Assembly: GCA_016124735.1 (NCBI GenBank)
Contig: WGMZ01000019.1
Coordinates: 67,217 to 131,216, forward strand
Direction of reading: 5' to 3'
DNA from: Bacteroidota bacterium
GTDB lineage: Bacteria > Bacteroidota > Bacteroidia > UBA8524
DNA: 64,000 bases
In this document: positions 42,012 through 46,767 of the stretch, one piece after another
Layout: each line of letters begins with the position of its first letter
How positions within the stretch are numbered: the first letter of the stretch is position 1
Position numbers and translations under genes: made by a program
The notes under the pieces: generated by a model
Databases searched by the model: none
Seen by the model: the letters and a program-made list of their open reading frames with translations, nothing else
What the model was told of the DNA's origin: nothing

Positions 42012-42503
42012 TTACCCCACTGGTTTAAACTGTTCGAAAGCCTGAAGGCAATTGTCGCAGTAATGCATGGAGCGGCAAAGAGTGGGTCCGAAGGGTGTGG
42101 TAAGGCGGGTGTTTCGGCTTCCGCAATAGGGACAGGCTACATCCGAAAGCACATTTAATTCAATCAAGCCGCCATGATTCTCTGGAGGAGGAGCTAAACC
42201 GTGTTGCAATAAAGCCTTTCTGCCTTTTTCAGTGATGCGTTCTGTGGTCCATGGAATGTCAAAATTGGTACTTACCTTCACTTGATCTACACCAAGCGAT
42301 TCCACTTTTTCCCGAACCATATCTTCCATGATTCTCAAGGCAGGACAACCGCTAAATGTTGGGATCAGGGTAATGGCAGCGCTGTTTTCATCCGGGTTGG
42401 TCTGAACACTGGTAACAATACCCAAATCAACCATGGAAATGGTGGGGATCTCGGGATCCATCACCTCCTCCAAAGCTTTCCATATTTCTTTTTCCTTTAC
42501 CAT
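42012..42503 (-). CDS. paaD: 1,2-phenylacetyl-CoA epoxidase, subunit PaaD
   Basis: A 163-residue cytosolic protein with a MIP18-like (DUF59) domain (EVMDPEIPTISMVDLGIV ... FSGCPALRIMEDMVREKV) and a C-terminal zinc ribbon (DVACPYCGSRNTRL ... CRSMHYCDNCLQAFEQFKP), the PaaD architecture. PaaD is thought to help mature the iron centre of the PaaABC(E) monooxygenase. It overlaps paaC by 7 bp on the minus strand and is the last gene of this run; no paaE follows, since the next gene converges. Confidence 0.93.
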   Translation of the reverse strand: MVKEKEIWKALEEVMDPEIPTISMVDLGIVTSVQTNPDENSAAITLIPTFSGCPALRIMEDMVREKVESLGVDQVKVSTNFDIPWTTERITEKGRKALLQHGLAPPPENHGGLIELNVLSDVACPYCGSRNTRLTTPFGPTLCRSMHYCDNCLQAFEQFKPVG

Positions 42504-43267
42504 TCTGCTCCCGGATCCACACGGAATACCTCGGTCATCTCATCCAAAAGAGGTTGAAGATGCTCGGTATGCTTTCCGGTACGTCCTCCATTTACAGGCG
42601 CCCAGTTACTGTCGTCAGGAATTTGCAATCCTGCTTCATCGATGATCGGTTGCACGGCTTCCAACCAGCGGAGTTTCAAAAAGTCTTCTCCCTTCCAGAT
42701 TCCTTCCTCGATGAGAAGGTCTTCGTACGGCGAGTTTTCGAAAATTCCAAGGGCAAGATTCCAACTTGCATTTAAGCTGGCTTGCATGCGTTTTTTACTT
42801 TCTTCGGTTCCTTTTCCAAGTTGCATCACAAATGTGTCGCCATGGAATTTGTGGTATTTCAACTCACCAACAAATTTGCGGGCGAGTTTGGCCAATGGCT
42901 CATAAGACGATTCAGAAAGTAACTCATACCGGATGAGTTCTGCATTGTCAAAAAGGAAATGACGTATAAGCGAGAAATCGTATTCGCCGATGGGATATTC
43001 TACCAATTGACAGCTATGGAACTGATTGTCATTACGAGTAAAGGCAACGGTATCCGGCTCGTTTTCTCCCAACTCATGCAGCAGTTGATACAAAGCCAAT
43101 GCTTGTCCTAATTTATCCTGAGCCATGGAAGAAAAAGAAATGTCTTCCTCCAGCATTGGTCCGATGCCGGTCCATTCAGAATTGCGATGGCCTAAAATCA
43201 ACAGGTCATCTGCCATTTTATAAAGCAGCTCTTTCAGCGCGAGGGTATTTTGTTCGTTCAGATTCAT
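42497..43267 (-). CDS. paaC: 1,2-phenylacetyl-CoA epoxidase, subunit PaaC
   Basis: A 256-residue ferritin-like-fold subunit that scaffolds the catalytic PaaA in the phenylacetyl-CoA epoxidase. The sequence shows LLYKMADDLLILGHRNSEWTGIGPMLEEDISFSSMAQDKLGQALALYQLL and KFVGELKYHKFHGDTFVMQLGKGTEESKKRMQ, both PaaC hallmarks. It is separated from paaB by 2 bp and overlaps paaD, so the three form one operon. Confidence 0.94.
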   Translation of the reverse strand: MNLNEQNTLALKELLYKMADDLLILGHRNSEWTGIGPMLEEDISFSSMAQDKLGQALALYQLLHELGENEPDTVAFTRNDNQFHSCQLVEYPIGEYDFSLIRHFLFDNAELIRYELLSESSYEPLAKLARKFVGELKYHKFHGDTFVMQLGKGTEESKKRMQASLNASWNLALGIFENSPYEDLLIEEGIWKGEDFLKLRWLEAVQPIIDEAGLQIPDDSNWAPVNGGRTGKHTEHLQPLLDEMTEVFRVDPGAEW

Positions 43268-43269
43268 GA

Positions 43270-43644
43270 TCAGGCTCCTTGTTTCGCTTTGTATTCGTTG
43301 ATCTTATCCATGACTTTGTATGGGGTCGCTTCACGGTATTGTTTTTCCGGTGTCGTCGCGAAAATGTCTGAATCGTCGTAATCGGAAGCAAAAATATCTG
43401 CCGAACGAACTACCCAAATATTGACACAAACACCTCGGCGGCCAAACTGTTCCTTGCCGAACAATAATGCCATCTCCGGATTCGGTGCATGGACAGTGCC
43501 GACATGTTGGTGATGGGTGCCTCTTTTCTTTTGATGAAATACCTCGTACGTTTCAAAATGATCCAGAGGTTTCAATTCCTCCGTAGCGCTTTGATCATCG
43601 ATCTGGGCACGGGAAATGCGTGGGTCTAAGGATTTTATGATCAT
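43270..43644 (-). CDS. paaB: 1,2-phenylacetyl-CoA epoxidase, subunit PaaB
   Basis: A 124-residue subunit B. The core FETYEVFHQKKRGTHHQHVGTVHAPNPEMALLFGKEQFGRRGVCVNIWVVRSADIF is typical; the N-terminal 30 residues exceed the 95-residue E. coli PaaB. It is the first gene of the run: an 18-bp palindrome lies 10 bp upstream and then comes the stop of an unrelated peroxidase gene, so the usual upstream paaA is absent here. Confidence 0.93.
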   Translation of the reverse strand: MIIKSLDPRISRAQIDDQSATEELKPLDHFETYEVFHQKKRGTHHQHVGTVHAPNPEMALLFGKEQFGRRGVCVNIWVVRSADIFASDYDDSDIFATTPEKQYREATPYKVMDKINEYKAKQGA

Positions 43645-43692: not shown

Positions 43693-44706
43693 TCAAGGGT
43701 CAGGTTGGTAATGCGGATTCTGGATGAATATCGCGTCGCTGAGCGTCTCCAAAAATGTAATCAGCGCTTGCCTGTCCTCTGCATTTAGAGTGAATGGTTT
43801 AATCAAATCATTCTGATGTGGCCCCTGTTTCCCGCCGGCACTGTAGTGGTTTAAAACGTCATCTAATGTGGACAGACTACCATCGAACATATATGGAGCT
43901 GTCAAAGCAATATTCCTGAGACTTGGGACTTTAAAGCTTCCGCTGTCTTCTGCTTTTCCTGTGGCTCTCCATCTTCCCGGATCATCGTAGATGGAATACA
44001 GTCCGTTGTTCATTGCGGTAAAATTGGTGAAGAAAGGTTCCGGATGGCATTTTGAACAATTGAGACTATTTGCAAATAGCTGATAACCCTTTTGCTCAAG
44101 AGCGGTAAATTGTTCATTGCCAGCTTTAACCTGGTCGTATTTGGAATTGGCGCTGAGCAATGTTCTTTCAAATGCCGCAATGGCGCGGGTGATGACGAAC
44201 GCATCGGGTGGTTTTTGGTAGGCAAGGCGACTCATTGAGTCGTACCAGTCAATCTCCTTTAGCTTGAGAGCGATATCAACTATATTGGAATTGAACTCAT
44301 TGTGTTCCTGAATGGGAACGAGGATTTGCATTTCCAATGTTGGGAGAGAAGCTTCTCGTAGAAATGCCGGTTGATAGGCTAAATTAAACAGGGCAGGTAC
44401 ATTTCTGGTTCCAGGACGCTGAAACACTCCATTACTTGTCGCATCGTTGTTGGCAAAAGCATGATTTTGTTGGTGGCAGGTAGCGCAACTAATGCTGGAA
44501 TCAATGCTTAATAGTGGGTCGAAAAAAAGTTTCTTACCGAGCGCTATGCGTTCCGAATTTGGTTGGTTGTCTGAGGGGAAAACCGGGTCTGGAAATTGAG
44601 TTGGGTAATTAAGAAACCACTCATTTTGGACCGATGAGGGTTCATCTCTGTGGCATGCCAGAATAAAAAGCATGCATCCCAATAGAGTGGCTATCCATTT
44701 CATCAA
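43693..44706 (-). CDS. Di-haem cytochrome c peroxidase / MauG family lipoprotein
   Basis: A 337-residue exported di-haem protein with lipobox FILAC (Cys18). Two haem-attachment motifs are visible: CATCH in the N-terminal half (about residue 75) and CSKCH in the C-terminal half (about 218). Family segments are ALGKKLFFDPLLSIDSSISCATCHQQNHAF and SFKVPSLRNIALTAPYMFDGSLSTLDDVL. Enzymes of this family are either H2O2-reducing peroxidases or MauG/MbnH-type protein oxidases; the sequence does not decide. It overlaps the next peroxidase gene by 4 bp, in an operon behind an MbnP-like gene. Confidence 0.9.
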   Translation of the reverse strand: MMKWIATLLGCMLFILACHRDEPSSVQNEWFLNYPTQFPDPVFPSDNQPNSERIALGKKLFFDPLLSIDSSISCATCHQQNHAFANNDATSNGVFQRPGTRNVPALFNLAYQPAFLREASLPTLEMQILVPIQEHNEFNSNIVDIALKLKEIDWYDSMSRLAYQKPPDAFVITRAIAAFERTLLSANSKYDQVKAGNEQFTALEQKGYQLFANSLNCSKCHPEPFFTNFTAMNNGLYSIYDDPGRWRATGKAEDSGSFKVPSLRNIALTAPYMFDGSLSTLDDVLNHYSAGGKQGPHQNDLIKPFTLNAEDRQALITFLETLSDAIFIQNPHYQPDP

Positions 44707-45818
44707 TGCGGGTCACTGTAACGAACGTCATTCACCAGCGTGAAATCCGAAAGGGTTTTCAGGAAGGCAATTAAATCGGCTTTCTCCTGAGTATCCAACA
44801 TCAATCCGGTGCTCATGGTGTTCTTTAACGCAGGGTCCAGTGTTGGCGAATTATGAATGCCCGTGTTGTAGTGATCTACCACTTCTTCCAAGGTGGCAAA
44901 ACGACCATCGTGCATATAAGGGGGAGTTAAAGCGATGTTTCTTAGACTTGGGACTTTAAATTTACCTCTGTCCATCATGTCGTGTGTAACTTCTTCTCTT
45001 CCCATATCCATCATCTGACCACCATCATCCAATCCGTTATTCATGTATCTGTCGTTCTCGAAATTGAAGCCGCCATGGCAATGGGCGCAATCTGCTCCGG
45101 TAATATCCGGAAAGGCTGGATTGTATTCGGCAAAGAAGAGCTTTCTTCCTTTTTCTTCTGAAGGAGTGAACTTCGCTTGTCCGGCTTGAACCTGGTCGAA
45201 TTTGGAATTGTAGGAAACGATGCTATTCATGAATTGCTCCATGGCCAATGAGATTCTTTCCGGGGTAATTGTTTTGGTTCCAAAGGCTTTTTCAAACATT
45301 CCTGTATAGCTGTCCATTGCCTCCAACTTGGTCACCACATTCTCCAATGTCTCATTCATCTCCACTGGATTTTGAATGGGCATCAACGATTGATCTCTTA
45401 ACAAGTGCGCACGTCCATCCCAGAAAAATTCGTTGCTGTTCCAAAGCATGTTAAATACGGCCATGGCCTGTCGGGTTCCCATTGTACCCGCAATGCCCGT
45501 TGAGAATTGTGCGGTATCGGAGAATGCATTTTTCTGCCTGTGGCAATCTGAACAAGCCTGGGTTCCGTCTCCGGAAAGGGCTCGCTCATAAAAGAGCATT
45601 CTTCCCAGTTCTACTCCTTCTTTTGTGAGACGGTTGTCTTCTGGAATGTTCGGGTCCGGTAATTTCCCATATTCAAGTGTATAGGGCGTTGTTTCAAAAG
45701 GGGCTTGAAGATCTGAATGGTCAGGTTTCTTGCATCCGTCTGTCAGAAATATGACGGCTCCGGAATAAATTCCAATGCCCAGAAAAACAATGCTTTTTCC
45801 AATTTGAATTTTATTCAT
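44703..45818 (-). CDS. Di-haem cytochrome c peroxidase / MauG family protein
   Basis: A 371-residue exported di-haem protein, related to its neighbour. The haem motifs are CSDCH (about residue 88) and CAHCH (about 244), with LGRMLFYERALSGDGTQACSDCHRQKNAF and GKFKVPSLRNIALTPPYMHDGRFATLEEVV. The N-terminus has a hydrophobic stretch ending DGCKK, perhaps a lipoprotein site. The His-rich/Met-rich loop MNNGLDDGGQMMDMGREEVTHDMMDRG before the C-terminal segment is unusual. It overlaps the MbnP-like gene by 8 bp and the second peroxidase by 4 bp. Confidence 0.9.
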   Translation of the reverse strand: MNKIQIGKSIVFLGIGIYSGAVIFLTDGCKKPDHSDLQAPFETTPYTLEYGKLPDPNIPEDNRLTKEGVELGRMLFYERALSGDGTQACSDCHRQKNAFSDTAQFSTGIAGTMGTRQAMAVFNMLWNSNEFFWDGRAHLLRDQSLMPIQNPVEMNETLENVVTKLEAMDSYTGMFEKAFGTKTITPERISLAMEQFMNSIVSYNSKFDQVQAGQAKFTPSEEKGRKLFFAEYNPAFPDITGADCAHCHGGFNFENDRYMNNGLDDGGQMMDMGREEVTHDMMDRGKFKVPSLRNIALTPPYMHDGRFATLEEVVDHYNTGIHNSPTLDPALKNTMSTGLMLDTQEKADLIAFLKTLSDFTLVNDVRYSDPH

Positions 45819-46767
45819 GAATCATCCAATTCACCTGATATAATTGATTGTTTTGGTCGGTTACTCGGATCAGATACATTCCGGATGGAAGATGCAGGTC
45901 CAGTTTATTGTTCTGAATGAGTTTCGTCAACTGAAGTTTTCCCTGGGCATCGTATACTTCAACTTTTTTATTGTCGGATGTTGAAGTCAGGAGCAATGTG
46001 CCTGATCCGGTAGATGGATTTGGGTAAATGCTTATTTGTTCTTTCTGAATGTCTTGAACATGTAAAACCGCATTATTCCCGTCCTTGGAACTAAAAACTT
46101 CCGTAGCGAAATTTTGAAGGAGATTCACGCATTGATCTGTTCCTCCGTGAATAATTAATCCCTGACTGACATCAATACCTTTAAGCGCCTGGGTATAGTC
46201 TGCATTTAGTTCAATGGTGAGGGTTTGCCCGGAAAGACTTCCCTGTGTCGCAATGATTTGTTGCAGGTAGTTTTCATCTCCCAATGCATGGATTTCCATG
46301 TCCTGATTCAAATTGCTTCCTGCGCTGCCTTCCAATGCAACAAAGCGGTAACCGGCGGCCCATCCCCAATGCATGGAAGGAGATTTTGGATACAATGGGC
46401 TATAGGTAGGAAATGCAGATGGATCGTTGTGATTCACTTCTGCATTGACGCCGACAGCAAAACGAATTTCTTCGAGACTGGTAATATTGAAATTGCCAAG
46501 CAAAGCATCAATCGGAATGCCTGCATCAACAAACACTACACTATCGCTGATAGGGGTAAATTGTCCGCCGTCGTGCACCAGGAGAATTTTGGAGATGTAA
46601 TACTGAAGGCGGGTCAGACTGAATTTTTGAGATTCCGGGGAACTTGCCTCCTGGTTGAAAGCGAAAGCCTGGTTTCCTAATTGGTGATTAATCTTCAGAT
46701 GAACTTCATATTGGGCAAAAGACGCCATATGAAATCCAATGGATAGCAGCAGTAGTAGTTTCTTCAT
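45811..46767 (-). CDS. MbnP-like copper-binding domain protein with T9SS sorting domain
   Basis: A 318-residue exported protein. After signal peptide KKLLLLLSIGFHMASFAQ comes a domain matching MbnP: FSLTRLQYYISKILLVHDGGQF, VVFVDAG, LEEIRFAVGVNAEVN and the diagnostic PSMHWGWAAGYRFVALEG, with Trp134 and Trp136. In methanotroph MbnP a Trp is oxidised to kynurenine by the di-haem enzyme MbnH and helps bind copper; here the next two genes encode di-haem enzymes. The C-terminus (residues about 245-318, ISIYPNPSTGSGTLLL ... LPSGMYLIRVTDQNNQ) is a type-A T9SS domain, so the product should reach the surface. It heads the operon. Confidence 0.85.
   Translation of the reverse strand: MKKLLLLLSIGFHMASFAQYEVHLKINHQLGNQAFAFNQEASSPESQKFSLTRLQYYISKILLVHDGGQFTPISDSVVFVDAGIPIDALLGNFNITSLEEIRFAVGVNAEVNHNDPSAFPTYSPLYPKSPSMHWGWAAGYRFVALEGSAGSNLNQDMEIHALGDENYLQQIIATQGSLSGQTLTIELNADYTQALKGIDVSQGLIIHGGTDQCVNLLQNFATEVFSSKDGNNAVLHVQDIQKEQISIYPNPSTGSGTLLLTSTSDNKKVEVYDAQGKLQLTKLIQNNKLDLHLPSGMYLIRVTDQNNQLYQVNWMIHE

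Follow-up and report, generated by a model that had tools for sequence, protein, structure and literature searches.

A T9SS-tailed MbnP-family protein encoded with two unlike di-haem enzymes in Bacteroidota

The three-gene operon and its MbnP-family protein

In the window, that is, the whole stretch of 64,000 nucleotides that was analysed, inspection of the open reading frames revealed an operon of three overlapping genes on the minus strand (46767-43693), encoding an MbnP-family protein and two di-haem enzymes, hereafter H1 and H2. The genes and the main features of the first protein are as follows.

45811..46767, minus strand: MbnP-family protein, 318 aa, with a Sec signal peptide read by eye at residues 1-19 (..FAQ)
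45814..46029, minus strand: T9SS type A C-terminal sorting domain of MbnP, residues 247-318 (PF18962, TIGR04183)
46360..46374, minus strand: M132-H133-W134-G135-W136, the WxW site, aligned to GMAWNW of 7l6g
46288..46290, minus strand: His160, nearly invariant, aligned with a His of MtMbnP (VHVGS)
44703..45818, minus strand: H1, di-haem MbnH/MauG-type lipoprotein, 371 aa (PF03150)
43693..44703, minus strand: H2, second di-haem MbnH-type lipoprotein, 336 aa from the ATG at 44703 (PF03150)

The MbnP and H1 genes overlap by 8 bases, and the H1/H2 junction is a TGATG overlap. The start listed for H2 is a TTG at 44706 (337 aa), but the ATG at 44703 is the likely one. An earlier note on this DNA had described three reading frames, including two overlapping di-haem genes with two CxxCH motifs each, and this description was confirmed; its landmarks FSLTRLQYYIS, VVFVDAG and HWGWAAGY and its numbering of Trp134 and Trp136 were also correct. 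Upstream lie DUF58/MoxR/DUF4350/DUF4129 genes and downstream paaBCD, and the same arrangement is found at loci L079 and L081. The paaB-paaC-paaD run (window 42012-43644) lies 48 bases downstream of the cassette on the same strand, with its order kept at both of these loci; paaA is absent from the run and is located on contig C52.

The first protein scored 98.4 bits against PF20243 (MbnP; curated cut-off 27). Its AlphaFold model (pLDDT 94.4) had MbnP of Methylosinus trichosporium (MtMbnP, 7l6g) as its top match, all six chains of which ranked first (E 5e-7 to 4e-6; TM 0.43-0.48, values that refer to the full two-domain model used as the query). When the PDB was searched by sequence, the single protein retrieved T9SS tails only, a five-row MbnP profile gave weak results, and a broader MbnP profile reached 7l6g. 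The score against TIGR04052, the four-Cys type MbnP_like_WxW, was 46 bits, below the cut-off of 140, and the four-Cys feature named in the MtMbnP entry is missing from the mature window protein, which has one Cys.

In the alignment with 7l6g, W134 falls on the first Trp of the WxW motif and M132 on the Met two residues before it, and W136 and H160 are likewise aligned. Among 64 aligned MbnPs, W134, W136, G139 and Y140 were invariant, and M132, H160 and H207 were nearly so. In MtMbnP, the leading Trp of WxW is reportedly converted to kynurenine, and a Met and a His are said to bind Cu(I). By analogy, Trp134 of the window MbnP may be converted to kynurenine and the protein may bind copper; the location previously proposed for the modified site is backed by profiles, fold and conservation.

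The C-terminal domain scored 40.6 bits against PF18962 (cut-off 27) and 52.4 bits against TIGR04183 (cut-off 23), and the tail matched the T9SS cargo tail 8glk_D with both the profile and the AlphaFold model. With a sorting domain above the cut-offs and a signal peptide identified by reading, the protein has the features of a T9SS type A cargo. The profiles back the T9SS display that had been proposed, and the position at the surface is predicted.

The ordinary MbnP and single MbnH pairs of Bacteroidota belong to the same families and have the same gene order, but their MbnPs are about 250 aa long, mostly lipoproteins, untailed, with an MFWxW-type motif and one enzyme. The motif was PSMHWGW in the T9SS type and GMFWSW-like in ordinary MbnP, and the T9SS type was also set apart by conserved His28, His65 and His133. 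The last of these was present in nearly all T9SS-type proteins; Trp replaced it at L210, a locus with both enzyme types. Because of the search pattern used, the GTDB set gives a biased view of motif conservation, but a phylum profile search free of this bias gave the same motif, with a single Tyr for His133 (L185). The T9SS-tailed proteins grouped as one clade in the MbnP tree, so a single gain of the tail is probable. The window genome has four MbnPs, and a di-haem gene adjoins each of them; the tail and a second enzyme are restricted to the window copy. The other three pairs, with GMxWTW motifs and without a T9SS tail, lie on contigs C45 (L073:7873-9731), C26 (L074:7324-9115) and C27 (L075:7666-9428).

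Two unlike di-haem enzymes

H1 and H2 scored 185 and 156 bits, respectively, against PF03150 (CCP_MauG). For both, the solved structure that ranked first was 6e1c, from MbnH of M. trichosporium, with MauG and all CcpA peroxidases ranking lower (E 1e-52 for H1; E 8e-23 and TM 0.84 for the AlphaFold model of H2, pLDDT 86.6). Scores against TIGR04039 (MbnH) were 248 bits for H1 and 228 bits for H2, below the cut-off of 362.85, although this was still the best NCBIfam match; against TIGR03791 (MauG, cut-off 444) both enzymes reached 170 bits. The assignment to MbnP and MbnH-type families made in the earlier note was upheld by profile searches, fold and conservation. The following positions were compared.

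45540..45554, minus strand: H1 haem 1 CxxCH, C89-H93, read from sequence; invariant in 73 H1
45075..45089, minus strand: H1 haem 2 CxxCH, C244-H248, read from sequence
45420..45422, minus strand: H1 Trp133 (FWDGR), inter-haem Trp position
44868..44870, minus strand: H1 Tyr317, aligned to the axial-ligand position
44473..44487, minus strand: H2 haem 1 CxxCH, C74-H78, read from sequence; invariant
44044..44058, minus strand: H2 haem 2 CxxCH, C217-H221, read from sequence
44356..44358, minus strand: H2 Arg117, replacing the inter-haem Trp; Arg in 82 of 90 aligned H2
43843..43845, minus strand: H2 Tyr288, aligned to the axial Tyr position; Tyr in all H2

The axial-ligand column holds Met in CcpA and Tyr in MauG and MbnH, and it is Tyr in H1 and H2. 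At the distal His column of L076, the CcpA-type enzyme of the window genome, H1 and H2 have Val, Ile or Ala. Thus, both have two CxxCH motifs, an axial-position Tyr and no distal His, as in enzymes of the MbnH/MauG type; membership among the CcpA peroxidases was rejected, since L076 has the distal His and the axial Met and both are missing in H1 and H2. The absence of the distal His and a Tyr in place of the axial Met are the mark of MauG/MbnH-type enzymes, which are poor peroxidases.

The two enzymes were found to differ at the column that we take, from alignment, to be the inter-haem Trp of MauG (Trp93). It was Trp in 81 of 81 H1 and in only 1 of 90 H2, the others having Arg (82), Lys (3), Phe (3) or Ala (1), while single MbnHs had this Trp nearby in 31 of 34 cases. 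A region specific to H2 (REGG..LE.Q..VPIQE.NEF) was kept across many genomes. In a quick tree with moderate support, H1 nested among single MbnHs and H2 branched apart; a recent tandem duplication was rejected on this basis, and H1 and H2 are separate lineages. A Trp-containing enzyme from L209 sat near the base of the H2 branch. At that locus (L209:6193-8850), two tandem untailed MHWGW MbnPs stand with this one H2-lineage enzyme, possibly an intermediate arrangement that preceded the loss of the Trp.

A Met/His-rich loop in H1, mentioned in the earlier note where it proposed that the two enzymes divide their work, proved peculiar to the window genome: residues 258-287 hold 7 Met and His there and 0-3 in 79 of 81 H1 (median 1), so the stretch is not a family feature. 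The division of labour that had been built on this loop loses that basis, but the idea itself is supported by the inter-haem Trp-to-Arg change in H2.

Lipoprotein signals were recognized by a simple rule in 64 of 73 H1 and 63 of 74 H2. Lys or Arg at +3 followed by an acidic residue occurred in 30 of these 64 H1 and 24 of these 63 H2, compared with 4 of 27 single MbnHs. The Capnocytophaga surface-export signal was experimentally defined as C-X-K-(D/E)2 (PMC5080379); the window lipoproteins have CKKPDH and CHRDEP, and H2 fits this signal loosely and H1 poorly. Since the N-termini of H1 and H2 often resemble the Bacteroidota surface-export signal, MbnP modification may occur at the cell surface, but the sequences only suggest such a location for the two enzymes.

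Distribution and association with copper genes

Of 247 genomes sampled from the class, 179 contained PF20243, which makes MbnP as such a common protein in this class. Orthologous cassettes were found in all five genomes examined of the family and in many other Bacteroidota, which places the observation far beyond chance and shows that it is not a local oddity; a GTDB genome scan gave 362 relatives. According to the record titles, the hosts were Flavobacteriales, Saprospiraceae, Chitinophagales and similar groups. Edaphocola flava, Taibaiella koreensis and Phaeocystidibacter luteus are cultured species that carry it. One cassette (L132, JASGCQ010000067.1) occurred on a MAG labelled Phycisphaerales, a contig that is probably misbinned Bacteroidota.

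Among 85 loci examined, the order MbnP-H2-H1 occurred 47 times, with one further frameshifted case, and MbnP-H1-H2 occurred 24 times; H1 and H2 both adjoined the T9SS-tailed MbnP at approximately 72 loci. Whole-genome searches for the exceptions located the second enzyme elsewhere in three genomes (G606, G607 and G609) and a few kb off in G608, while contigs of G610 and G611 ended where it would be. A clear H2 was not found by such a search in MAG G605 (L095), in which H1 is present, possibly because the MAG is incomplete. Another MAG carries a split cassette, with two T9SS-type MbnPs, one with H2 only and the other with H1 only (L098 and L099). A family with the pattern DLDFHP...GGSTVxx...DGNAWHFMAL...GPxLW adjoined the cassette at nine loci (L107:5017-6129, L118:4966-6093, L095:5509-7566, L138:9377-10747 and others); three scanned members had no Pfam match except the T9SS tail in two.

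An HYC_CC_PP gene (NF047658) lay within 9 kb of 56 of 94 T9SS cassettes, mostly immediately upstream, and of 1 of 41 ordinary MbnP loci (Fisher p 3e-11, uncorrected for shared ancestry, which partly accounts for the association). Within the same distance, CopA-type ATPases occurred at 13 and AraC-type regulators with an N-terminal CxxC at 12 of the 94 cassettes, and in a sister genus (L082) all stood in one run, HYC-MbnP-H2-H1-AraC-CopA. These neighbours tie the cassette to copper homeostasis. Copper genes were not found flanking the window's own cassette, next to its DUF58/MoxR and paaBCD genes, so the case for copper at this particular locus is an indirect one. On contig C40 of the same genome (L217:1-9210), an HYC_CC_PP gene heads a metal-efflux run, identified by sequence reading rather than profiles, with genes for a CusA-like pump, outer-membrane efflux, a His-rich P-type ATPase and a heavy-metal-binding adaptor; this context suggests a part for HYC_CC_PP proteins in copper/silver efflux.

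A candidate surface copper site and its alternatives

The closest known system is the MbnP/MbnH pair of M. trichosporium OB3b (7l6g and 6e1c; TIGR04052 and TIGR04039, "metallo-mystery pair"). Its MbnP shares the fold, the WxW, the Met two residues before and the His downstream, and its MbnH has the axial-position Tyr of H1 and H2. Unlike the OB3b protein, the window MbnP has a T9SS tail and a His beside the Trp and lacks the four-Cys motif, and the cassette contains two di-haem enzymes, one without the inter-haem Trp, and lies below both TIGRFAM cut-offs. Both pairs are outside methanobactin clusters; the remark that the operon is far from any such cluster was true, but MbnH/MbnP pairs of this kind had already been published (PMC3621798). 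In methanotrophs, CorA and MopE are surface-bound copper-kynurenine proteins with a co-transcribed di-haem partner, and SACCP is found together with MopE at the cell surface (PMC3912023). CorA/CorB and MopE/SACCP thus resemble the cassette, in which kynurenine would likewise be formed from tryptophan, but they have one enzyme, do not use T9SS, and show little sequence similarity to MbnP (MopE/CorA; PMC3621798). MauG shares with H1 and H2 the di-haem fold, the Tyr at the axial ligand position and the lack of a distal His; its target is methylamine dehydrogenase, and H2, unlike MauG, has no inter-haem Trp. A literature search for the metallo-mystery pair, HYC_CC_PP or "MbnP family" returned nothing.

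Taken as a whole, the observations are best explained by a copper-homeostasis cassette with a kynurenine site made by H1 and with H2 as an obligate helper, to which we assign a probability of roughly 0.55. Sec would export MbnP and the type IX system would then take it across the outer membrane, after which it would either stay anchored to the surface or be released there. With its inter-haem Trp and Tyr ligand retained, H1 would oxidise Trp134, at the first position of WxW, to kynurenine. The modified MbnP could then coordinate a single copper ion, most likely Cu(I), through Met132 and His160, and His133, the extra residue of the T9SS type, might assist. H2, with Arg for the inter-haem Trp, would relay electrons, act as a partner subunit or catalyse a second oxidation step, and would be neither a redundant copy nor a peroxidase scavenging H2O2. 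A more specific version is put forward only tentatively, in which H1 and H2 would form an obligate two-enzyme machine at the surface that builds a copper site or a new Trp/His-derived cofactor in the T9SS-displayed protein, H1 making the oxidising di-haem state and H2 acting as electron partner or carrying out the second step.

MopE/CorA are surface-located and made under low copper (PMC3912023, PMC3423442), and a role of the cassette in surface scavenging of copper, rather than in detoxification or storage, is conceivable but not favoured, given that the neighbours in other genomes are of the efflux type (the CopA ATPase, an AcrB/CusA-like pump with its outer-membrane part, and heavy-metal-binding domains). 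It is rather unlikely that the enzymes make a different protein-derived cofactor, for example with Trp134 and Trp136 both modified or a bond between Trp134 and His133, in which case MbnP would work in redox reactions at the surface instead of holding copper at a kynurenine site. The two obligate enzymes from separate lineages and the nearly fixed His next to the Trp, which ordinary MbnP (MFWSW) does not have, would agree with this. However, the Tyr of L185 and the Trp of L210 at that position speak against it, as does MtMbnP, in which a single MbnH reportedly changes the first Trp only (Manesis et al. 2021). On the other hand, MauG has two tryptophans as its targets (PMC3912023).

That H2, or both enzymes, remove H2O2 near the copper protein is improbable. 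They belong to the same superfamily as CcpA, and peroxidase work had been envisaged for one of them, but this role is disfavoured because the distal His and the axial Met of L076 are replaced in both. Decay of H2 as a functionless duplicate of H1 would fit its loss of a residue that nearly all relatives retain, but it is very hard to credit, as H2 is not the sister of H1 and its two haem sites, Tyr288 and its specific region are conserved across many genomes. The interpretation given in the earlier note is partly supported.

The novel elements are the T9SS-displayed MbnP clade with its MHWGW motif, the two unlike di-haem enzymes that constantly accompany it, and the near-universal replacement of Trp by Arg in H2. 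Under the proposed reading, copper-kynurenine chemistry would reach beyond methanotrophs to the surface proteins of widespread Bacteroidota and would be linked to copper efflux genes. Moreover, H1 and H2 differ at the Trp that is held responsible for sharing charge between the haems in MauG-type catalysis. Since H1 keeps this residue and H2 nearly always lacks it, the cassette is a natural test of enzyme mechanism, in which both the role of the inter-haem Trp and the question whether a single enzyme is enough to oxidise tryptophan become directly testable.
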